NCBI GenBank assembly: GCA_015178975.1
Contig: WHVD01000203.1
Span: 62,001 to 126,000, forward strand
Source: Hysterangium stoloniferum
Taxonomy: Eukaryota > Basidiomycota > Agaricomycetes > Hysterangiales > Hysterangiaceae
Direction of reading: 5' to 3'
DNA length: 64,000 nucleotides
Made by a program: the position numbers and the translations under genes. Positions 40,020 to 64,000 of this stretch are shown here, piece after piece (the stretch's first letter is position 1; each line of letters starts with the position of its first letter). The notes beneath the pieces are model-generated. The model was not told the DNA's origin. It saw only the letters and a program-made list of their open reading frames with translations, and ran no database searches.

Positions 40020-43000
40020 GTTCCCTCTCCACCTCTTTGATGGCACAAGTAATTCAGTTGTTACCCAAGCTTGTGATTTATCCATCTGTTTCTCATGTGG
40101 AACATCTCAGTTGGTCACTTTCTATGTGACCCAGTTAGACTCAAGTTGCTCGGTGGTCCTTGGACACAACTGGCTTACCTGCTACAATCCATTGATTGAC
40201 TGGATAGCTAACAGTATAACATTCCAGACTCCCATGGCAGCCAAGGAAACTGCACCTGACACGGCCTCCACAGCACCCATGGCCTTCCCGGCACCTGCAG
40301 TCTTGAGGACTCCTGTGATCCCTATGGCACCTATGGCTTCCCTGGAATCCATGGCACCTCCATCTATTTCTCTGATTAATGCTGCAGCTTTTATTAGGGC
40401 TACAAAAATGGACGGGTCCCAGGCATTCACTATCAACTTAAAAATTGATGAAGCAACTGGATGTTTTTCAACTCCTGTATCCGAATCTGAGCAAGCTGCT
40501 GACCTAGAAGGTGTCCCAGAGAAATATCATGACTTCACGGATGTTTTTAACAAGTGAAAAGCTGACCAGCTTCCACCCCACAGAGAATACGACTTAAAAA
40601 ATCAATCTCAAAGACAGCACCCAGCCACCCCTAGGACATATTTACCTGCTCTTGTCCACGGAACGTTCCGCAATCCACGATTTCCTGGATGAACATCTGT
40701 CCATAATTTTTATCTGACCCTCAAAGTCTCCTTTTGGAGCACCTGTTCTGTTTGTCAGAAAAAAGGATGGATCCCTTAGACTATGTGTTGATTTTAGAGG
40801 ACTCAATGCTGTCACTAAAAAGGATAAGTATCCACTTCCACTTATATCTGATCTGCTTGATGCTCCCGGAATGCCCGAATTTACACCAAAATAGATCTCA
40901 AATATGCCTATCATTTGGTCTGGATCACCACGGGTGATGAATGGAAAACCACTTTTAGAACCTGCTATGGGGCCTTTGAGTGGTTGGTGATGCCCTTTGG
41001 ACTCACCAATGCTCCACCTGTTTTTCAGCATTTTATCAATGACATTTTCTTCAACATGCTCGATGTATGCGTTATTGTTTACTTGGATGACATTCTTATC
41101 TACTCTGAGGACCCTGTGGAACATGACAAACAAGTCCATGAAGTTCTCCAGAGACTCAGACAACATGGTTTATTCGTGAATGGGAAAAAATGTACTTTTG
41201 ACACATATTCCGTGGAATACCTGGGTTTCATAATGGCACCCGACGGACTCCGCATGGACAAAACTAAAGTGCAAGTCATCAAAGATTGGCCTGAACCCCG
41301 AAAAGTCAAAGATATACAATCATTCCTTGACTTTGCCTATTTTTCCAGATGGTTTATCTGTGGATATTCAGACATCACAGTTCCCCTTACCTGTCTTACA
41401 CATAAGGATACTCTGTGGAATTTTAATTATAAGTGTCAAAAGGCTTTCAATCTTTTAAAAAATTCTTTTTCTTTAGCTCCTATTCTGCCGCATTGGAAAC
41501 CAGACCTCCTGCTCATTGTTGAAACGGACACCTCGGACTATGCACTTGGAGCCATTCTGTCTATCCAGGACTCTGATGGAGAAGTCCACCCTGTGGCCTT
41601 TCTGTCCCGGACTTTCACCGGGGCAGAGCTCAATTACGACATTCATGATAAGGAACTCCTGGCAATTTTTTCAGCTTTCAAAGTGTGGTGACACTATTTG
41701 GAAGGCTCAGGAACTCCAATTGACGTTGTAACAGATCACAAAAACCTGGAATACGTTTCTACCAGAAAACTTTTGACCCGTCGGCAGGCCTGCTGGTCTG
41801 AATATCTATCCACCTTCAATATGACTATCCATTTTTGACCTGGCCGTCTCGGCGGCAAACCCGACACTTTAACTAGATGATGGGACATCTATCCCAAAGA
41901 GGGGAGCAACAACTATGCCATGGTAAACCCACACAACCTGAAACCTATTTTCATGAATCAGCAACTTACTGCATCAGTCCGTGCAACTTTCCTCATCAAT
42001 CCCATTGTCTGTGGAATTATCATTATGGATATTGAGAAGTTACATCAAGATATTCTATCGGCAATTCCACTAGACCCGATAACTAAAGCTCACCTCGACA
42101 ATCCCATGGACCCTGATCAACCCCGGTGGACTCTTGATCAGCATGGTTTCATTAGACTTGACGATCGGATCTATGTACTGGACTCCAATGGCCTCTGCCT
42201 CAGGATCCTTCAGTACAAACATGATCATCCACTCTCAGGACATTTCTGTTACAACAAAACTCTATCATTAATAAGAAGAGAATATACTTGGCCCGGGCTC
42301 TGTGGATTCATTAAGCACTATTGTATATCTTGCACTACTTGTCCCCACTCGAAATCTCAGCGACACAAGCCATACGGCCTTTTGAAACAACTCCCGGTAC
42401 CAGAACACCCAAGGAATTCTATCTCTATGGATTTCATTGAACACCTACTGGATTCCAAAGGCTTTTCTGCCATTCTAGTCATTGTTGACAGATTCTAAAA
42501 ACAAGGTATATTCATCCCTACATATGATACAATTACATCTGTGCAGTTAGCGGAACTTTTTATTATCCACATATTTTCCAAGCATGGAGTTCCGTCCCAT
42601 GTAACTTCTGATCAAGGATCAGAGTTTGTGTCTCATTTCTTTAGATCCCTCAGGAAATCCTTGGACATGAAATTACATTGACATCACCCGGAAGGTGATG
42701 GACAAACCGAACACGTCAACCAGACATTGGAACAATATCTCCACGTATATTGCAATTATCAACAGGACAATTGGAAATCCTTGTTACCACTTGCAGAATT
42801 TGCTTACAATAATGCATTCTCGGCCACTATTGGCGTTTCCCCGTTCTTTGCAAATAAAGGATATAATCCAAATATTACAGTACATCCAGAATAAAATCTC
42901 ACCTCTGCTTGCGCTCAAGAGTTCACCATGGACTCCATGAGGAACTCTGGACTGCAATAAAGTCTGCCCAAGAGCAATACTGACTTTCAGCGGACAGAAC

Positions 43001-43493
43001 CGGATCCCGCCACCCAACTTCAAAATTGGTGATCGTGTTTTTGTCAAAGCTCAATTCTTCCGGACTACCCGTCCATCAAAAAAGCTTGCTGAAAAATATT
43101 TAGGTCCTTTTGAAATTATTGCACAAGTATGTAGGTTCAGTATCTTGGACCCTATGGCTTCCGGATAGCATGTGCACGGTACACCCAGTACTTCATGTTT
43201 CTATTCTAGAACCTTGTACTGCTAACACTATCCCGGATCGTGTGCAATCTCCACCTCCTCCGGTCATTATTGATGGAGAACCTGAGTTTGAAATCTCACA
43301 AATTTTAGATTCGAAAATTGACAAGCTTCAATGCACTTGTAAACTGCTTTACTTGGTCAAGTGGGCAGGTTATGAGGGCACTGATGAAGACACTTCATGG
43401 ATTTTGGCCATGGAACTTGGTAATGCCACAGAAATCATTACTGACTTTCACACAGCTTACCCACTCAAATCCGGACCACTATCATCTCTCTGA
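40009..43493 (+). pseudogene. Element A pol (reverse transcriptase, RNase H, integrase, chromodomain)
   Basis: The protease core is deleted: sequence just after the junction hairpin joins directly to LFDGTSNSVVTQACDL. Pieces: 40009-40557, 40915-41691, 41920-42498, 43110-43493. Reverse transcriptase has [12 protein letters not shown] and VYLDDILIYSED; RNase H has DTSDYALGAILSIQDSDGEV and HDKELLAIFSAF; integrase has the zinc-binding CISCTTCPHSKSQRHKPYG and SMDFIEHLL. The C-terminal chromodomain reads LLYLVKWAGYEGTDEDTSWI. Stops and frameshifts lie between all pieces, several at former CGA or CAA codons. Confidence 0.9.
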
Positions 43494-43690
43494 CCGCACT
43501 CCACAGACCCCGTGTTACATTTGGACTCATTTTCATTATTCCCTGTCGCCCTGTGTCTCTCTTTGCTTTCACAGGTTCTGACATGTCTTTCAAGTCCTTA
43601 AGTGGATTTCCCATGGACTTTGATTCTTATTTTTTTTCACGCTTTACTTTCATTTTCAAAAAAATTTATTATCAAGTTTTATTTTATTCT

Positions 43691-44633
43691 TCAATCTACA
43701 CTTATGGGGCTATGCTTCTGCCCAACCTCAGCCATCTCTTGAGGAAGCTCCGCTACCTCTGCAGGCGCCCTGTCCTCGGAACTCCTGGCTTGTGGCTCCT
43801 CATATATATAGCTGCCGAACTCCGCAAGGAATTTCCAAAACTCCGAGAGGAGCCCATGGAGCTCATTCACCACCACAATTTGGACCTTGTTGCTTTTTTG
43901 GAGCAACTCGTTCTGGGCCTCAATGCCCTCGGCGATCCACCCCAATACATCATCCAACCTGGACATCCCGTCTGTTCTGCTAACGTCCCATGCCCCTGAT
44001 CCCATGGGTTGCTCGTGGACAAGCAAGCACCTCACCTTGAGGTGTGCACACTGGTAGCACCCCAGTCCCCACCCGGACTTCTGATTGCACTCCGTGTTCC
44101 GGTCATTGCAACTGGAATACCACGGATCGTTCTGCATCGGTAGGTGGACTGGTGCCACTTTCCTTGCTTTCTGTTGATCCTGGTCAGTTTTCCCCGGATA
44201 TCCCACAGACCCAAGACAAACCTTCTGGGGGCTCTCTGGCTCCCTCTCGGACTCGGACTCCACCTCTGTTGCTTTGCACTGAAAATACAAGTCAGCAAAA
44301 TTCGACAAGTTGAACATTGGGACTTACCTTTCCCGGTGCAACTGCGGCCCTGTCTGCAGCCACCTGGGCTTTTTCCCCGGCCACCCACACAGCCTCCTCC
44401 TCATCTCTCTTCCTCTGTCTCTCCACCTCTTCCTCTGTGGCCAAGGCCACCTGGTATTCCCTGTCTAGGGCTTCCTCCACCTCCCTCGCCTCCTTTTCTG
44501 CCTCTTCACATTGTCAGCGCTGTTCCTCTCACTGCACCAGTATTTGGGCCATGCTGAGCGGCACCCAATATGGAGTGCCTGTGGAGGGCCCAGCAGTCAG
44601 CATGGGACATCTTGGCATTGGCTTGGGTCCCAT
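43691..44633 (-). pseudogene. Antisense two-intron gene of element A with Zn2Cys6-like motif
   Basis: Opposite strand to the element, between pol and the 3' LTR. ATG at 44633; exon 1 44633-44328 (306 nt); intron 44327-44279 (49 nt, GTAAGT, CTGAC branch, TTTTCAG); exon 2 44278-44222 (57 nt); intron 44221-44171 (51 nt, GTTTGT, CTGAC branch, CAACAG); exon 3 44170-43691 (480 nt). All junctions are phase 0; 280 residues if the stops are ignored. Exon 1 is E/R/K-rich, probably coiled coil (EEVERQRKRDEEEAVW), with TGA at codons 35 and 40. Exon 3 has Y18-x2-C21-x6-C28-x9-C38-x2-C41-x6-C48, a Zn(II)2Cys6 pattern in which the first Cys has become Tyr (TAT), then a helical tail. Function unknown; a DNA-binding or regulatory role is inference. 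Confidence 0.75.
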
Positions 44634-44682
44634 TATGGCGAGATGGGGGTAATAAAGAAGAAGAAATCTTCATTTTTTCAAA

Positions 44683-44690
44683 TTTTTATA
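44683..44690 (-). promoter_or_regulatory. TATA box of the element A antisense gene
   Basis: TATAAAAA on the minus strand, 50 bp upstream of the ATG at 44633. Equivalent boxes lie 48 bp upstream in B1 and, decayed, in B2. Confidence 0.6.
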
Positions 44691-44842
44691 TAGGCTCATC
44701 ATGTCTGAACCTTACCTTCCAGATCACATGACTCTTTGACACATACGTGTAACTGACATGACTTTTGACACATGTGCATAGCTGACAAGAACCTTATCGA
44801 GGTCTAGAGCCTCTTTGGGACTTCGGCATAAAGGGAGGGTAC

Positions 44843-45636
44843 TGTTACAACTGGAATTCCTGCCAGACTCTGGGCACTAACTTATACGCACCCGCACCCT
44901 ATATGCACCAATCATCAGTTTACCAGAATTCCCGCTGGACTCTGTACATCAGACTTGTCTACGTTCGACTTCGTTATGTTGTGTTTCAGTCACCAGAATA
45001 CCCACTGGACTCCATCCCTGTCTATGTCTGACCTCATCCCATGCATCAGTCACCGGACCCCACTCAGAAAACCTGTCATCCCTCTAACAGAGCCCCATTC
45101 CCGTTTTAGTCAAATGACCTGTCACGATTCAGACTCCGCTCCCACTCCATTTCCCGTTATGGTTTATGATTCGTCACAATTTGGACTCTGCTCCATTCCA
45201 TCCCGTTCCTAACACCAAATTTGGTCTTTACTATTCCCGTTTTATGTTTTGCTAGTTTCGTTTCATTATTACTGGATTTGGTATGTCATTAATTCCACGG
45301 TCTATATAGTCTGGCAGATTTTGTACATACAATCCAGTCAGAAAATCGGCTTAGATTCCCCCCAGTAATCTAATACATTTTCTGCTCTAAACTCCTACTT
45401 GAATTACACTGCTCACGCTAGTTGGAGCCCACAGGCTCTGGTGCATCTATCTCTCTTATTTATCTCGACTCCTGACCTCTCAACCCACGAACCCACCTGG
45501 ACTCTCTGGGATTCCCATCCACCTGTCTGAAATTGGACGATACGATCTCATGAGGGTGCAGCCTATAAGGTGAAGCCAAGTCCTACCGGATATCCCATGG
45601 GTTTCTCCAGAAACCCGCTGTGTATGTACCCTAACA
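44843..45636 (+). repeat. Element A 3' LTR
   Basis: 794 bp, TGTTACAACTGG to GTACCCTAACA, followed by target-site duplication AGATA. Carries the shared LTR motif near 45550-45570 (GGTGCAGCCTATAAGGTGAA). Confidence 0.92.
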
Positions 45637-52397: not shown

Positions 52398-52524
52398 GTT
52401 CCCCCCTGTTAGGCTGAAATCCCATAGAGGTGATTAGGTACTGAGTGTTGAACCACTGGTTATGCATTATGTGTCATGAAATTATGCAAATTTGGAAGTG
52501 GAGAGTTTCAGCTGCTGATCTGAG

Positions 52525-52532
52525 TATGAAAA
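52525..52532 (+). promoter_or_regulatory. Decayed TATA box of the B2 antisense gene
   Basis: TATGAAAA, 48 bp upstream of the ATG at 52580, aligned with TATAAAAA in B1. Confidence 0.4.
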
Positions 52533-52579
52533 CTTCCAAATATTCAAAATAACAATTTCTTTCTTTAACCACAACTTGC

Positions 52580-53741
52580 ATGTTGATTCACTATCCCTTG
52601 TTTGCCAACAGATGCCAAAATTGCTGTACTCGCAAAAATGTCAAAGGTCAAAGAACTTCAACAAAAATGACAGAGGATGGAGGAGTTGAAGTGACAACAA
52701 GAGGAGGAGGAGTGTGTGTTGATGCAGGAATTGAAGGAGGTGGAAGAAGTGGAAAAACACAAGTTGGAGTGGGTGATGGCAGAGAAGGAAGCAGAGGAAA
52801 AAAGGAAGTAATGGTTGTGGAAGGTTACAGAAGATCAGAGATTGTGGGAAGAGGCAGAGAAGAAATGGCAGGATGCCATGGTGGAAGAACAGAAGTGGGA
52901 TGGAAAAGTAAGTGAGCCAGAAATGATCTGTGTATTTCCAATAATGGTAGGTAACAGTGGAAAGACATTGAGGTGGATGAGGAGGGAGGGGCTGGGCCTT
53001 TGAGTCCAAAGTAATTTTGTAAAAATTCCAGAATATGACTAATTTCTGAAACAGAAACCAAAGACCAGGGCTCCAGAATGGATGGAGGTTGTTCACAAAA
53101 TTACATGTCAGCATTGTGCAACTTGTTGGAGATAGAAGGTAAAATGGGGTGGAACCTGTTTTCCTTGCATGGTAAACAAGATTCCATGCACTCTCGCTGT
53201 GAAGCAAACTCCAAAGAATGAAAAGGTTCAAAAGGTTGAAAAGGTGGGAAAAACAGAAAAGGTGGAAAAAATAGTGGTTGTGGGAATGTCAGGAACAGCC
53301 AAACCTGTGGAAACTGAAGTGCCAAAAATGGACAATGATACCAGCATCAGACTCCTCAGAGATACTATTAATGCAATGGTATTTATTGGGATGGAGTTGA
53401 TGGAGGTTCGAGAGACCTTAGAGCACCCTAATCCTGTCCAAGAGAATGGTTTCCAGGCATTGAATTGGAACTTCTGGAAACAGAATGAATTCCTGGCAAA
53501 GGTAATGGTCAGCATTGGTATTATTGTGGTTTCTGAAAGGTATGCTGATAAGGAAAAGGTATGCTAATAAGGAAAAGGATGAGCTGAATGATCCATTGGG
53601 ATATTGTTGAGAAAAGTTGGGTGTCAGGAGAAAAGTTGGGAAGTGAAGATGGGGAGATGCAAGAAATGGTGGAGAGTGTGGAGGATAGTCACACTTCATT
53701 GAATATGCAAAATTTTATGGAAATGTCCTCATATTTTTAAG
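52580..53741 (+). pseudogene. Antisense two-intron gene of element B2
   Basis: Counterpart of the B1 antisense gene, on the plus strand because B2 is reversed. ATG 52580 in the same ACAACTTG context. Exon 1 52580-52907; intron 52908-52957 (50 nt, GTAAGT...TAACAG); exon 2 52958-53010; intron 53011-53054 (44 nt, GTAATT...GACTAAT...ACAG); exon 3 53055 to about 53741. Exon 1 is Glu/Lys-rich (QELKEVEEVEKHKLEWV) with stops at former Arg codons. Exon 3 contains KVKWGGTCFPC and IPC of the second half-cluster; the first half-cluster has lost about four residues (CQHCATCW). The tail (DTINAMVFIGMELMEVRETL, FLAKVMVSIGIIVVSERYAD) aligns residue by residue with B1. Confidence 0.72.
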
Positions 53742-53974
53742 TGAGACTACTTCCTCTGGCTATGACTACATGTTTTAGGGGTTTATATTTCATTACCCCA
53801 AAATTTGATCTCTAAGACTTGTATGCTCTTTTAAAATATGCACAAATGTCATGGTTATACAAGATTATTTGGGTTGTTACCTAATCTTTGGGATAAAATG
53901 CATTCTCTAGTATCTCCATGACTTTTAAAATGTCCACAAACATTATAGTTAACCAAAATTATTTGGGTTAGAGG
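53742..53974. repeat. Inserted repeat replacing the B2 chromodomain region
   Basis: 53827-53970 matches the about 95-bp tandem unit at 34998-35180, same phase, about 1.5 units. It interrupts B2 between the antisense gene and the integrase tail. Confidence 0.6.
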
Positions 53975-54713
53975 CAGAGGTCGCATATGTTCTGGGACGT
54001 TGTTAGGAACACAAGGTTCTAACATGGAAATGTGGAAGACAGGATGAACTGTTCACATACTTTTGGGAAGTCAGAGAGTCCAGGAAAGTGAGCTGGCTTG
54101 TGCTATAATTTCAAAAGGACCTAAGAATTTCTTGACAGGTTTTTTGGAAGGTCAGGTAGTTCAGAAGAATTGAGCTTTTAGAAAAATCTAGTCTCCAATC
54201 TTGAAGTTAGGAGGTGGGATTCTGTTTTTATCCACAGAATGTTGATAATGTTCCTGAGTGGAAGAAATAGCTTTCTGAAGTTCTTGATGTAACTCATCAA
54301 GGTCAGTAATAAATTCTTGAGCACAAATGGAAACCAAATCTTGTTTGGAACCTTCTGGATGATATTCCAAAGTGAAGTGTAATTTCATGTCAAGAGCTTT
54401 TCTGAGGACCTTGAAGAAATGGCAAACAAATTTGGAACCTTGATCAGAAGTTACATGAGATGGAACACCATGTTTGGAAAATATGTGAATGATGAAAAGT
54501 TCTGCTAATTGTAAGGATGTGATTGTATCATGAGTGGGTATGAAAATTCCTTGTTTCAAGAATTGGTCTACAACAACTAGAATGGATGTAAAGCCTTTGG
54601 AAGTCAGTATTTGTTTGATAAAATCCATGGAAATTGAGTTCCAGGGTTTTTCCAGTATCAGGAGTTGCTTGAGAAGGCTATGTGGCTTATGTCTCTGGGA
54701 TTTAGAGTGCAAG
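53975..54713 (-). pseudogene. Element B2 integrase fragment
   Basis: KSQRHKPHSLLKQLLI, SMDFIKQILTSKGFTSILVV (first Asp), TSDQGSKFVCHF (second Asp), EYHPEG; then an internal deletion removes the catalytic Glu and joins to KQDLVSICAQEFITDLDELH and RIPPPNFKIGD. Closest to B1 integrase. Ends at the LTR-A2 insertion. Confidence 0.85.
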
Positions 54714-55038: not shown

Positions 55039-55958
55039 TGTTAATTTCCAGATCTTGGGGCAGAATTTCCGATGGATATTCCGGATACTTCCCAGAAATA
55101 TGTCCTCGGAGTTTCGGAGAATTAGTCCGGGAGTTTCTGGGGATTAGTAATGGGAGTATTGGAATAATACCAGAGTACAGATGGACTTGGCTTCAGCTTA
55201 TGTGCTGGGCCCTCGTGCACTCACTCGGGTGTCCATATTTCAGAGGATGAATATATGTCGGAATGTTTACGGATACTTGGAAGTTCCGGGAGTTCTGGAT
55301 ATCCAGAGTCCAGAGAGTTCCGAAGATTGAGCATACAGAAAGACAGAAGAGATACAAACTAATTTGAGATTAAAACTAAAGAGTAAGTACATGGCTATGG
55401 AAGACTATATAGATGTTCCAGTAATTGTACTACAAATCTAGAAGTATAATAAGACAGATTAGGATGAAGATTCTGAAACGGGAATACAACAAGAACAATA
55501 AACAAGCGCATGAATAACTGTTAACCTGTCAGTTACTAAATACAGAACAAGGATGAGGTTCGGAAATATGGAAACTATAAATGTTCCATAGTTGGAAGTC
55601 AGGTTGGATTTTGAGGTGGATGTCAGAAAGTCGGATTGGAGACTTGGGGTGGAAAGTCAGATCAGAGATGGGAGTCTGACTGGATGTCTGACTGGATGTC
55701 TGACTGGATGTCTAACTGGATGTCTGACTGGATGTCTGACTGGATGTCTGACCAGATGTCTGACCGGATGTCTGACCGGATGTCTGATCGGATGTCTGAT
55801 CGGATGTCTGATCGGATGTCTGACTGGAAGTCACCTTGAAGGGATGAGGTTCAGGTTCCAGTGGATTCTGGATCTTGATACTGATCTGGAAGATGGTTCG
55901 GACCCAGAGATAATATCCGGGAAATACTCCGAAGAGTTTCCAGGAACAGATCTTTACA
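55039..55958 (-). repeat. Solo LTR-C, nested in LTR-A2
   Basis: 920 bp, TGTTAATTTCCAG to GATCTTTACA on the plus strand, flanked by ACTGT on both sides (55034-55038 and 55959-55963). Keeps CpG, so it is young relative to its host LTR. It contains the 12-bp minisatellite at 55675-55830 and the shared LTR motif in reverse near 55188-55212. Confidence 0.93.
55675..55830. repeat. 12-bp minisatellite, 13 units, in LTR-C
   Basis: Unit TCTGACTGGATG. Units 1-6 are mainly the ACTGG form, 7-9 the ACC form, 10-12 the ATCGG form, 13 a degenerate edge, so variants are clustered in blocks. Confidence 0.95.
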
Positions 55959-56519
55959 ACTGTATAGACTGTGAAATGTATGCAATACTAAATCCAATAA
56001 TAATGAAGGACTAAATGAGTAAACATAAATTGGGACAAGTAAACACCAAACTAGGTGTTAGGGATGGAACAGAATGGGGGCAGAATTTGAAACATGACAG
56101 GTCATTTGACCATAATGGGAGCAGCTCAGTTAGAGAGCTGACTGGTTGTCTGGGCAGAGTCTGGTGACTGGTGCATGAAAACAGAGTCAGACATAGACAG
56201 GCTTGACATGAATGGGTCCCAGCAGAGTTGGGCATAGGTAGGTTTGACAAGTGTGGGTCCTGGCAGGTTGTCTGATGACTGATGCATGAGGTAAAGGTCG
56301 GGTGCCTATAAGGTGGGATCCAGAGCCCAGTGGGTTTTCCAGGTAACTGTCACCTGGTATGGAGAGTCAGGGGCATATAGGATGGGGTCTGGAGCCCAGT
56401 GGGCTTTCTGGTCCTAACAGTAAGCAAGTTGTGCATGACTTACAGAACTGAGTAATGAAATCTCAGAGGTTGGGCCAAATATATTCTTTTCAGATTAAAC
56501 TAAGAGTATTGTTAATTCC

Positions 56520-57063
56520 TGTTACGACCCGTTCCCGGATGTTTCAATATCTGACTTCCAATCTCCGACTACGGAACATCATAGTTACTGTATCATCCGC
56601 ATTCTTCCCTTGTTCCGCATTTGGTAATTTGTCGGTTGACAAGTATTCACTTATTTGTTTGTTATATTCCGATTTCGGAATATTGTCTCCCTAATATGTC
56701 TTATTGTATTTCCATTTTAAGAACACTTCCGTTTCCGTCTTATTATGGTCTTAGTTTGTAGTACAATAATGAGTAGACTTATATTAGTTTCCGTGAATTT
56801 GTACTTTACCTTAGATCTGATATCGACTTAGTTTCTTATTCCTCCTCCCATCTTTCTGTACGCTCGATATTCAGAACTCTTCGGAACTCTGAATATCCAT
56901 ATCTTCCATCATAAGTCTCACTTCTGAAATTAAGGACTTTGAGCGTTTGCGTAGAGGTGCAGCACATAAGCTGAAGCCGACGTCCTGACCCTATCCGATA
57001 GTTCCCGACTTTCCAGTGACTTTCTGATAGTTCCAGAATAAGTTCCCAACACGGCACTTAACA
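56520..57063 (+). repeat. Element B1 5' LTR
   Basis: TGTTACGACCCGTTCCC to GGCACTTAACA. Followed by GTATATCAGATC, loosely similar to an initiator-tRNA primer binding site. Shared LTR motif near 56956-56980. Confidence 0.95.
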
Positions 57064-58327
57064 GTATATCAGATCTCAACTCTGTGACTCGCTCATCCTG
57101 GGTCCCAAATGCAAAGCTGCCGAAGGACCATCCCAACTCCAATCCCCATTGCAACTTTACACCACTCAACCCGAAACCCCAATTCAGCCGACAACATCAG
57201 CTTCAGTCAAAGAAGTTACCGAGGAGATTACCGAGGTAATGAAGGACACCAATATTCCCCACACTTCTGACAACGAAGCAGAAGATCAGCTGGAGACATT
57301 GAAAAAGAAATCTTCTGACAAACCGACCGAAATGTTGTTTATCAACTCCATTGTGAAATTCGCTGACTACTTGAAATCCGTTGAGGATAGTAAAGAATCA
57401 TCCCGCACTGGAGTCAAAGAACCCGAACCATTTACTGGCAAGGATCTGAAAAAATTGAAGAATTTCCTTCTTCAATGCCGTTTCAGTTTCCATGATCAAC
57501 CCACTGCATTTAAATCCGACAGTCAAAAAGTCAATTTCACGCTCTCTTATCTCAAGGATACCACTCAAGATTGGTTCGAGCCTGGACTATCTGGAATATC
57601 TGACGAGACACCCGTATGGCTCGATGACTGGGATGCCTTTGTGGAAGAACTGGAAACTAATTTCAGACCTTACAATCAATCCGGTGAAGGGGAAAATGAA
57701 TTAATGACGCTCAAGATGAAGGACAATCAACGAGTTTCCGATTATCTCGTCAAGTTCAATACCCTCACCGCATGATGTGGATGGGACGATTCTGCCCTCA
57801 GACACCATTTCTATATGGGACTTCCATCATGCCTTAAAGACGAGATCTGCAAAGATGGAAAGCCAAAAACTCTCCAACTCATGCGGATTAAAGCTCAAAC
57901 ATCCGATGCCTGTTATTGGGAATGCAAAGCCAAGGTCTCTCAAGAGAACCTGACGGAACATTCTCAGAATAACAAGGCGTCGACTAGCAAGTCTTCCGGC
58001 AACAACTCAGGCAATAACACCGGCAACTCTGGCACTAATACTGGCAAATCAAACTCTGACCAGAAGAAAGACAAGAAATCCAACAAGGAAAAACAGTCAA
58101 CTTCTGACAAACCCGACATTTCCCATTTGTTGGGTACCGACGGTAAACTCACCCTGAAGGAGAAACAACGACGTATGGACAACGACCTCTGCCTTTTCTG
58201 CGGGAAAGGCGGACACAAGGTTTCCAACTGTACCGTTAAATCTAACTCTTCCAAGGCCCGCATGGCAACTTCCACTATGACTACAATGTCTAAGGAAAAA
58301 CCCGCCATGGAGTCGAAAAAAGAGTAA
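57064..58327 (+). pseudogene. Element B1 gag
   Basis: One frame from the LTR end to the TAA at 58325-58327, with a single internal stop: TGA at 57773-57775 in NTLTA*CGWDD, probably a former CGA (Arg). No clear ATG near the 5' end. Capsid core DWDAFVEELETNFRPYNQSG; low-complexity Asn/Ser/Lys stretch; zinc knuckle CLFCGKGGHKVSNC (C-x2-C-x4-H-x4-C). Gag would coat the RNA genome in the cytoplasm. It ends in AAAAAAGAGTAA followed by a hairpin, see the frameshift signal. Confidence 0.9.
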
Positions 58328-61300: not shown

Positions 61301-62033
61301 CAACTGGAAATCCCTTCTTCCGATTGCGGAATTCGCCTACAATAACTCTCCGAATGCAACTACCGGCATATCTCCTTTCTTCGCCAACAAAGGCTATAAT
61401 CTGAATCTTACTGTACATTCCAAACAAGATTTGGCTTCTGTTCGTGCTCAAGAATTTATTACTGACCTCAACGAATTACATTAAGAACTTCAGAAAGCTA
61501 TTTCTTCCACACCGGAATATTATCAACGTTCTGCGGACAAAAACAGGATCCCACCTCCTAATTTTAAATTCGGTGATCAGGTTTTTGTAAAAGCTCAATT
61601 CTTCCGTACTACCTGACCTTCTAAAAAACTCGCTGAGAAATTCTTGGGCCCTTTTGAAATTATAGCACAAGCCGGATCACTCTCATGGACTCTCCGACTT
61701 CCCGATAGTATGCAAGCGGTTCACCCCATTTTCCACGTTTCCATGTTAGAACCCTGTGTTCCTAACAAAATCCCGGAACGTATTCAACCTCCGTCCCCTT
61801 CAGTCATCATTGACGGAGAACCCGAATTTGAAGTTTCTGAAATTTTGGATTCTAAAATCGACAATCACCGATGTACTTGTAAATTCCTCTATTTAGTCAA
61901 ATGGGCAGGTTATGAAGGTACCAATGAGGAAACTTCATGGATATTGGCCACGGAACTCGGACATGCTATGGAAATTGTTACTGATTTCCACACAGCTTAT
62001 CCAAGCAAACCTGGACCTTTATCATCACTCTGA
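58328..62033 (+). pseudogene. Element B1 pol (protease to chromodomain)
   Basis: Protease RALIDSGSTHCFVD with the catalytic Asp intact; a frameshift near 58655; reverse transcriptase with [23 protein letters not shown] then TGA (59424-59426), [14 protein letters not shown] and YLDE, where one extra base breaks the YLDD box; a 20-bp tandem duplication at about 59978-60017 shifts the frame in the RNase H start; RNase [36 protein letters not shown]; integrase [47 protein letters not shown] (complete DDE); stops at 60825 and near 61482 and 61613; chromodomain LYLVKWAGYEGTNEETSWI. Domain order is that of chromoviruses. Confidence 0.93.
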
Positions 62034-62128
62034 CCATTTCCGTTTTCTTTCTGTTCAGCTTCCGACACTTCCGTTACTTCCAATATCACACTCGTTTTGA
62101 AATCATACAAGTCAAAATTTATTTGCAT

Positions 62129-63240
62129 CTATTTTAAAGTCTCTGACACCCCGAATCCTCCTTCCATTTCTACTCCCATATCATCCGCAATCTCCGCACT
62201 TTCCACCATATCCTGTACCTCTTCATCTTCACTTTCTGGCCCATTTCCTGACTCCCACCTTTTCTCAACACATTCTGCCAACGGATCATTAGGCTGTTCC
62301 CGTGCCTTATCAGAAAATCTCTTGGAAACTGTGATAATACCGATGCTAACCATTACCTTCTCCAGGAATTCGTTTTGCCTCTGGAAATTTCGGACCAATG
62401 AACGGAAACCTTTTTCCTGGATCTCATTATGGTGATCTAGTGTATCCCACATTTTCATAACTTCTGTCCCGATAAAAACTAACGCGTCAATGGCGTCCTT
62501 GAGGAGCTCCATGCCCGTACTATCCGTTTTCAGCACCTCAGTTTCTGCAGCTTTGGCCGCTCCCGAACTTTCCACGTCGTTAGTTTTCTGAGGCTTCTCA
62601 CCTTTTGGAACCCTTTTCGAGGCGAGAGTGCACAGAAGTTTAAGAACTGCACAGGGTTAGCAAGTTCCACCCCATTTTACCTTCTGTTTCCAACATGTCA
62701 TACTCCGTATGGAACATCGATAACAAAGATTTTCATGGACCACTTCCATCCATTCCGGAGCCTTGATCTTTGGCTTCTGTTTTGGAAGTTAATCAAATAC
62801 CGGCCTTATTGTAGATGCACTTACTTTAGGACTCGAAGGTCCAGCCTCTCCCCCTACCTCCACCTCCACGGCTTTTCGCTGTACCCAATAGTTATCTTAT
62901 CGATTGGAACCACGGAAACTTATGGATTTCACTTACCTTTCCTTCCCTTATCTCCTCACGTTTTTTTGCCGCCTCTGACTCCCACTGTAACTTTTCCACC
63001 TCTTCCTTCTTTTTCTGAGCCTCCGCCGTTTTCCGGATCCACGCTTCTTTTTCCGCCTTCGCTCGCTCCAACTCCCATTTTTCCACCTCTTCCACATCCT
63101 TCAACTCCTGCATCAACGCCTTTTCCTCCTCCTCCTGTCGTCGCTTCAACTCCTCCATCCTTTGTCATTTTTTGAAGTACGGCAATTTCGGTATCTGAAT
63201 CTTCCGGGGTAGTGATGAATAGAGGCCGACGAATCGACAT
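62129..63240 (-). pseudogene. Antisense two-intron gene of element B1 with Zn2Cys6 signature
   Basis: Between pol and the 3' LTR, opposite strand. ATG 63240; exon 1 63240-62937 (304 nt, 306 before a 2-nt deletion near 63165); intron 62936-62879 (58 nt, GTAAGT...GTACAG); exon 2 62878-62825 (54 nt); intron 62824-62777 (48 nt, GTAAGT, TTAAC branch, AACAG); exon 3 62776-62129 (648 nt). Junctions are phase 0. Exon 1 is Glu/Lys-rich, probable coiled coil (EELKRRQEEEEKALMQELKD), and has an in-frame TGA shared with B2. Exon 3 shows C18-x2-C21-x6-C28-x10-C39-x2-C42-x6-C49, the Zn(II)2Cys6 spacing, with a TAA (62659-62657) at codon 40, possibly from CAA. The acidic tail follows DAIDALVFIGTEVMKMWDTL. 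Role unknown. Confidence 0.78.
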
Positions 63241-63288: not shown

Positions 63289-63296
63289 TTTTTATA
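63289..63296 (-). promoter_or_regulatory. TATA box of the B1 antisense gene
   Basis: TATAAAAA on the minus strand, 48 bp upstream of the ATG at 63240, in the about 180-bp space before the 3' LTR. Confidence 0.6.
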
Positions 63297-63424
63297 CTCA
63301 GAACATCAGTCGAAACTCTCACCTCCAGAATTGCATAAATTTCACGACACATAATAATCAGCCATCGCTTCAATCACTCAGTACATAATCACCTCTATGG
63401 GATTTCGGCCTAACAGGGGGGTAC

Positions 63425-63967
63425 TGTTACAACCTGTTCCTGGATGTTTCAATATCCGACTTCCAATCTCCGACTACGGAACATCATAGTTACTGTATCA
63501 TCCGCATTCTTCCCTTGTTCCGCATTTGGTAATTTGTCGGTTGACAAGTATTCACTTATTTGTTTGTTATATTCCGATTTCGGAATATTGTCTCCCTAAT
63601 ATGTCTTATTGTATTTCCAATTTAAGAACACTTCCGTTTCCGTCTTATTATGGTCTTAGTTTGTAGTACAATAACGAGTAGACTTATATTAGTTTCCGTG
63701 AATTTGTACTTTACCTTAGATCTGATATCGACTTAGTTTCTTATTCCTCCTCCCGTCTTTCTGTATGCTCGATATTCAGAACTCTTCGGAACTCTGAATA
63801 TCCAGATCTTCCATCATAAGTCTCACTTCTGAAATTAAGGACTTTGAGCGTTTGCATAGAGGCACAGCACATAACTGAAGCCGACATCCTGACCCTATCC
63901 GATAGTTCCTGACTTTCCGGTGACTTTCTGATAGTTCTGGAATAAGTTCCCGACACGGCACTTAACA
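63425..63967 (+). repeat. Element B1 3' LTR
   Basis: 543 bp, TGTTACAACCTGTTCC to GGCACTTAACA. Differences from the 5' LTR are mainly C/T and G/A transitions, for example CGACCCG against CAACCTG at the start. Confidence 0.95.
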
Positions 63968-64000
63968 ATTCCATAATGTCCAGAGATCAGATGATTGTGT
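63968..64000 (-). pseudogene. Element B2 pol, continuation after B1
   Basis: Reverse match to B1 around 60754-60782 (CTCCGGACATTACGGCATT-like, here with CG-to-TG changes). Shows that B2 continues beyond the window. Confidence 0.7.

Follow-up and report, generated by a model that had tools for sequence, protein, structure and literature searches.

The genome of Hysterangium stoloniferum contains a clade of Ty3/gypsy chromoviruses that appears to carry a spliced, protein-coding accessory gene, located antisense to gag-pol in the interval from the chromodomain to the 3′ LTR and most likely encoding a nuclear regulator that binds zinc and nucleic acid; we put the probability of this reading at about 0.8. 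Its parts differ in strength: that this is a real spliced coding gene is very probable on sequence grounds, and the nuclear regulatory role of the protein is a tentative proposal with somewhat less than an even chance of being right. Comparison of copies establishes the coding frame, both pairs of predicted splice sites, their fixed positions in three families of the element, and the linkage of the gene to pol. Positions below refer to the window, the whole stretch of 64,000 nucleotides that was analyzed (contig WHVD01000203.1, positions 62,001 to 126,000 of the forward strand).

The element that carries the gene in the window has an integrase core (rve match, E 1.3e-08) in addition to two LTRs and a pol end with an SH3-like domain and a chromodomain (Table 1), features by which it is classified as a Ty3/gypsy chromovirus; its match to RVT_1, obtained with a cut piece as query, lies below the cut-off (E 1.4e-04). 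A tandem array of a 12-nt unit is found beside the element (55638-55868). An earlier examination of the letters alone (the sequence-only reading) had described a three-exon gene with its own TATA box on the strand opposite to gag-pol, between the chromodomain stop and the 3′ LTR. The position of that stop is correct, the placement of the gene is borne out, a TATAAAAA box is present on the minus strand, and the ATG, both GT-AG introns, exon 3, and the stop codon are all confirmed (Table 1).

Table 1. Coordinates of the antisense genes and of the element parts that surround them in the window
Feature	Position	Strand	Remarks
5′ LTR	56519-57064	+	Aligned to 3′ LTR: 96.5% identity, 545 nt, 18 mismatches, 1 gap
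Pol end: integrase C-terminal SH3-like domain and chromodomain, stop 62033	61644-62033	+	SH3_Tf2-1 E 1.4e-11 and Chromo E 1.1e-05, both above cut-off
3′ LTR	63424-63968 (start ~63424)	+	From the LTR alignment
TATAAAAA box of antisense gene	63289-63296 (63296-63289)	-	56 nt upstream of ATG; TATAAAA 56-57 nt upstream in 51/57 copies
Exon 1, N-terminal coiled-coil-like part	62937-63240, ATG at 63240	-	Frameshifted in window copy: 29-nt gap compared with relatives
Intron 1, 58 nt, GTAAGT...CAG	62879-62936 (62936-62879)	-	Phase 0 of conserved frame; GT in 57/57; length 50-58 nt among copies
Exon 2, acidic stretch flanked by two basic patches	62825-62878	-	
Intron 2, 48 nt, GTAAGT...CAG	62777-62824 (62824-62777)	-	Phase 0 of conserved frame; GT in 57/57; length 47-51 nt in copies with intact 5′ half
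Exon 3, stop TAG 62131-62129	62129-62776	-	Premature in-frame TAA in window copy
Six-cysteine segment, C-x2-C-x6-C-x10-C-x2-C-x6-C	62630-62725	-	Each Cys present in at least 35 of the 36 in-phase copies
AATAAA, possible poly(A) signal, just 3′ of antisense stop	62118-62123	-	AATAAA within 40 nt of stop (<=40 nt) in 32/57 copies
Family 2 antisense gene	43691-44633	-	Exon 1 44633-44328 (two in-frame stops), intron 1 44327-44279, exon 2 44278-44222, intron 2 44221-44171, exon 3 44170-43691 (open)
Exon 3 remnant of third, minus-strand element	53076-53683	+	tblastn 54% identity (53076-53558), further piece to 53683

The window copy of the gene is a pseudogene, with a frameshift in exon 1 and an in-frame TAA in exon 3. 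Its exon 1 measures 304 nt, whereas 20 of 39 copies have one of 333 nt; because of this 29-nt alignment gap the spliced reading from the window ATG stops at codon 95. The phase 0 that the earlier examination gave for the introns holds in the frame conserved among relatives; an open frame in the window copy is not borne out. Judged from the alignments, the signal of a gene goes beyond chance, and its proof lies in the other copies rather than in the copy in the window.

Copies were sought throughout the genome (111 Mb, 554 contigs). For the family to which the window copy belongs (family 1), the best 40 of 378 candidates from a DNA search were scored, together with the best 150 of 779 candidates from a protein search with exon 3 (72-100% identity), so that copy numbers from both searches are lower bounds. 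The alignment comprises 59 sequences, namely 38 from the DNA set, 20 from the bottom of the protein set, and the window copy. Two copies with a missing or replaced 5′ half (L058 and L026) were omitted from the counts of splice sites, indels, and intron loss (n = 57); the same two and L068, which has an altered 5′ end, were omitted from those of phase, dN/dS, and cysteines (n = 56). All family 1 counts are given per copy and, the copies being related, do not represent independent events.

Both introns begin with GT in all 57 copies and end with AG in about 55 of them, and in nearly all copies the donors differ only as GTAAGT- or GTGAGT-like forms; donor positions 3-6 are conserved at 91-100%, compared with a mean of 86% across the remainder of the intron. 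Indels in a multiple of three account for 2 of 78 in the introns and 55 of 81 in the exons, and introns exceed exons approximately 7- to 13-fold in indels per base. With GT-AG ends, fixed positions, and an exon frame that is independent of intron length, the two predicted introns have the properties of spliceosomal introns. Retrotransposition normally removes introns. Here neither intron has been lost from any of the 57 copies, and two further families retain both at the same alignment columns, in agreement with the earlier proposal that introns carried in this orientation persist through retrotransposition.

All three exons are in phase in 36 of 56 family 1 copies, 5 of the 36 being free of premature stops; counted over the 57 copies, the antisense frame is open in 5. 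TGA makes up 59 of the 66 premature stops in the in-phase copies, an excess that suggests CpG deamination (C-to-T decay of CGA codons) after insertion. The antisense frame has a median dN/dS of 0.218 (480 of 630 pairs, dS >0.3), and four of the five other frames give values of 0.93-1.13. Transversions, which are not produced by deamination, affect 6.7% of fourfold sites in the antisense frame compared with 2.6% of second positions. The constraint equals that on the end of pol: the antisense gene and the pol end both have a dN/dS of 0.217 over 225 pairs from the 25 cleaner copies of the 36 (the pol-end value is 0.363 when misaligned copies are included). Synonymous sites have diverged about 2.4 times as far in the antisense gene as in the pol end over the same pairs (dS 0.52 vs 0.21). 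The sequence-only reading had named a dN/dS near 1 as evidence against its gene; the value among family 1 copies, 0.22, is not near 1, and the claim of a coding gene is sustained for the family, although the window copy has lost its frame.

Two alternatives that would deny the frame its importance can be weighed against these figures. An antisense frame may arise by chance from the codon bias of a sense gene, and the fifth frame, on the sense strand and with the same wobble position, does have a median dN/dS of 0.30; per copy, however, it contains a mean of 6.5 stops and the antisense frame, its terminal stop counted, a mean of 2.8. Splice signals exist and are kept in the antisense direction only, and unless the sense strand gives spliced transcripts at this place, chance is left an almost negligible probability. 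The antisense RNA could also be the effector in its own right, pairing with the genomic RNA to cause dsRNA silencing or interfering with sense transcription, with a frame that is incidental. The retention of the TATA box in 51 of 57 copies would suit such an RNA, and dsRNA has been raised as a possible role for antisense transcripts of LTR elements in the account of PMC7264820. The low dN/dS, the near-complete retention of the cysteines, exon indels that are mostly multiples of three, and introns that are free to vary in length all point instead to a protein, and we regard an RNA effector as highly improbable.

The gene is closely associated with its element. A chromodomain is present on the gag-pol strand at 54 of 59 antisense-gene loci and an LTR at 53 of 58; conversely, at least 24 of the first 30 chromodomain matches adjoin an antisense copy (paired by eye). 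The gene displays several of the features by which an aORF-3R is recognized, namely the opposite strand, a location between pol and the 3′ LTR, presence in many copies, and conservation similar to that of pol. A minus-strand relative of the element (52500-54707) also lies in the window and carries a decayed antisense gene, of which the exon 3 remnant is listed in Table 1.

Two further families in this genome have the antisense gene at the same place. The family 2 element of the window (40033-45400) is 70.7% identical to the family 1 element in its pol DNA, and the exon 3 proteins of the two families are 26% identical; its gene has an ATG at 44633 and a TATA at 44692, 59 nt upstream. Among family 2 copies (best 150 of 1287 candidates scored), seven were aligned, all of which keep GT...CAG at both introns, and two of the seven, on different contigs, are fully open. 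Family 3 was found via the weakest chromodomain matches (best 150 of 530 candidates scored). Four of its five fetched copies have a full-length gene, which is open in two of them and contains a single stop in each of the other two; the open gene of L082 has introns of 50 and 58 nt and a TATA 57 nt upstream. A young copy, L083, is without about 0.55 kb comprising most of exon 3, and its adjoining sequence is 97-98% identical to L082, L084, L085, and L086; the antisense gene may therefore be dispensable in cis. In a protein alignment of five sequences from the three families, the intron positions are identical in all five (alignment columns 128 and 157).

These families bear on the possibility that a host gene was captured by one element and is carried as cargo that is not under selection. 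The TATA box, introns, and poly(A)-like signal are host-like features, but three diverged families have equal intron positions, the constraint resembles that on pol, and searches of the organism's own genome gave no single-copy host parent among the matches listed; captured cargo is accordingly judged very unlikely.

When the entire antisense protein of a single copy served as query (scored part 120-344), no match at E 0.1 was obtained among 5.8 billion proteins, and relatives were recovered via profile searches only. These are four proteins, three of which (P0001, P0003, and P0004) are annotated fragments from H. stoloniferum; the fourth (P0002), from a metagenome, aligns to 83% of the query at 42% identity and has the same six-cysteine spacing. 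P0003 is a chimeric H. stoloniferum protein that matches adjacent stretches of the genome at 96% and 90%. A fragment of the antisense gene is located beside another protein-coding fragment at G000:C113:221674-222184, in a region matching P0003.

The predicted protein has approximately 290-350 residues. Its N-terminal part is charged and probably forms a coiled coil; basic patches, the cysteine segment, and a helical region follow, and the tail is acidic. The basic patches lie at the two ends of exon 2 (GK/RKA and SPK/K, the slash marking the exon border) and are kept across families, as read by eye. A basic patch at the exon 2 borders, the six-cysteine segment, and coiled-coil-like stretches suggest a nuclear, dimerizing protein that may bind zinc and nucleic acid. 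The cysteine segment (C-x2-C-x6-C-x9/10-C-x2-C-x6-C across families, each cysteine present in 35 or 36 of 36 family 1 copies) has the spacing of fungal Zn2Cys6 clusters, and in its six cysteines it resembles PF00172 (Zn_clus). It differs in that all three families score below the curated cut-off of 21 (cut segments from family 1, 12.3 bits; family 2, 14.0 bits; family 3, 14.8 bits); shuffles with the cysteines held fixed matched the same model in 2 of 9 cases (10.8 and 17.9), one of them scoring above the real segments. The segment is therefore described as cluster-like by spacing, without assignment to PF00172. The genome contains PF00172 matches at 42 places, none of which, by eye, is a listed antisense copy.

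A structure model of P0002 (5 sequences) has a mean pLDDT of 54.3, with only one helix (95-168, 74 residues) predicted confidently and a pLDDT below 50 in the cysteine part. Searches of solved structures by sequence gave no match for the family 1 and family 2 segments. A designed helical protein (E 0.35, profile against solved structures) and weak matches of family 3 to a cytochrome bc1 subunit were disregarded. The modeled helix of P0002, the coiled-coil-like stretches, and the cysteine motifs would also suit a structural or replicative accessory protein of the virus-like particle that acts outside the nucleus; the conserved basic patches flanking exon 2 argue against this role, which is considered improbable.

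The accessory gene, in the reading that we prefer, would have a TATA promoter of its own immediately inside the 3′ LTR, and the three-exon transcript made from it, ending just short of the pol stop, would be spliced and translated. The GT-AG introns of the minus strand read CT-AC on the genomic RNA, which has the opposite polarity; they should remain unspliced there and be copied by reverse transcription, so that introns would be retained where a gene on the sense strand would lose them. The protein is predicted to be nuclear, dimerizing, and capable of binding zinc and nucleic acid, and may act in trans on the expression of the element itself.

A more specific proposal is that the gene is a long-carried, transcription-factor-like antisense gene, encoding a zinc-cluster coiled-coil nuclear protein that activates the LTR or shields it from silencing of the methylation type; selection would have retained the introns because antisense splicing allows the protein to be made by the cell and not by the genomic RNA. 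We consider this proposal unlikely. The LTR contains a TTCCGATTTCGGAA palindrome and three CCG/CGG pairs, whereas letter shuffles average 0.7 such pairs. The idea of a zinc-cluster binding site in the LTR was dropped because most windows of the LTR are better conserved than this palindrome, which ranks 441 of 531. Among repeats considered as candidate binding sites, a single 27-nt pair was found, upstream of the family 2 gene.

The logic of the proposed regulator would be comparable to that of HBZ in HTLV or of the plant aORF-3R proteins. HBZ of HTLV-1 is spliced and encodes a bZIP protein. Like the gene described here, it is an antisense gene near the 3′ LTR; its protein is nuclear and has a regulatory role, as is predicted for the present one. 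It differs in the protein itself, in having its promoter within the LTR, and in belonging to an animal retrovirus (as described in PMC11963269). Antisense frames at the same place in plant Ty3/gypsy elements, which the sequence-only reading had mentioned, are indeed on record as Grande gene23, RIRE2, Retand ORF4 with TRP28, and PvRetro13 (PMC7264820; PMC11963269). According to the same two accounts, Grande gene23 has its own promoter and a nuclear protein, DNA binding is predicted for TRP28, and a regulatory role has been proposed for plant aORF-3R. The likeness to the H. stoloniferum gene consists in position and orientation; the proteins and the hosts are different, and the descriptions in these sources make no mention of introns.

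The closest fungal counterpart in the accounts available is brtn, the antisense gene of Boty-like elements in Botrytis cinerea (Zhao et al. 2011, Virology 417:248; via PMC7264820, PMC8365987, and PMC4227169). It too is an extra gene antisense to gag-pol, in the interval between pol and the 3′ LTR of a fungal Ty3/gypsy element with a chromodomain; its host is an ascomycete, and the comparison is one of published descriptions. The earlier suggestion that no fungal equivalent had been described has to be narrowed accordingly: brtn is such a gene, and what searches of open PMC papers did not turn up is an antisense gene with introns in a fungal LTR element. Small spliceosomal introns in a minus-strand gene of a mobile element are known from Didymium, where a homing-endonuclease gene lies antisense inside a group I intron and is interrupted by a spliceosomal intron of 47 nt; that element is an rDNA group I intron and not a retroelement, and expression of the gene has been shown there (PMC9548176). 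Insofar as these sources describe them, antisense accessory genes are already known from plant elements and from Boty brtn, and the two-intron fungal gene is a variant of that theme.

The gene provides a natural case in which introns outlast repeated rounds of reverse transcription through their antisense position, and one that allows the positions of the introns to be compared from family to family within a single element lineage. It also offers a testable system for the role of antisense accessory genes in LTR elements, to which it adds a likely nucleic-acid-binding protein. Annotators may expect genes of this kind to appear in fungal genomes as fragmentary “hypothetical proteins,” as is the case for three of the database relatives.
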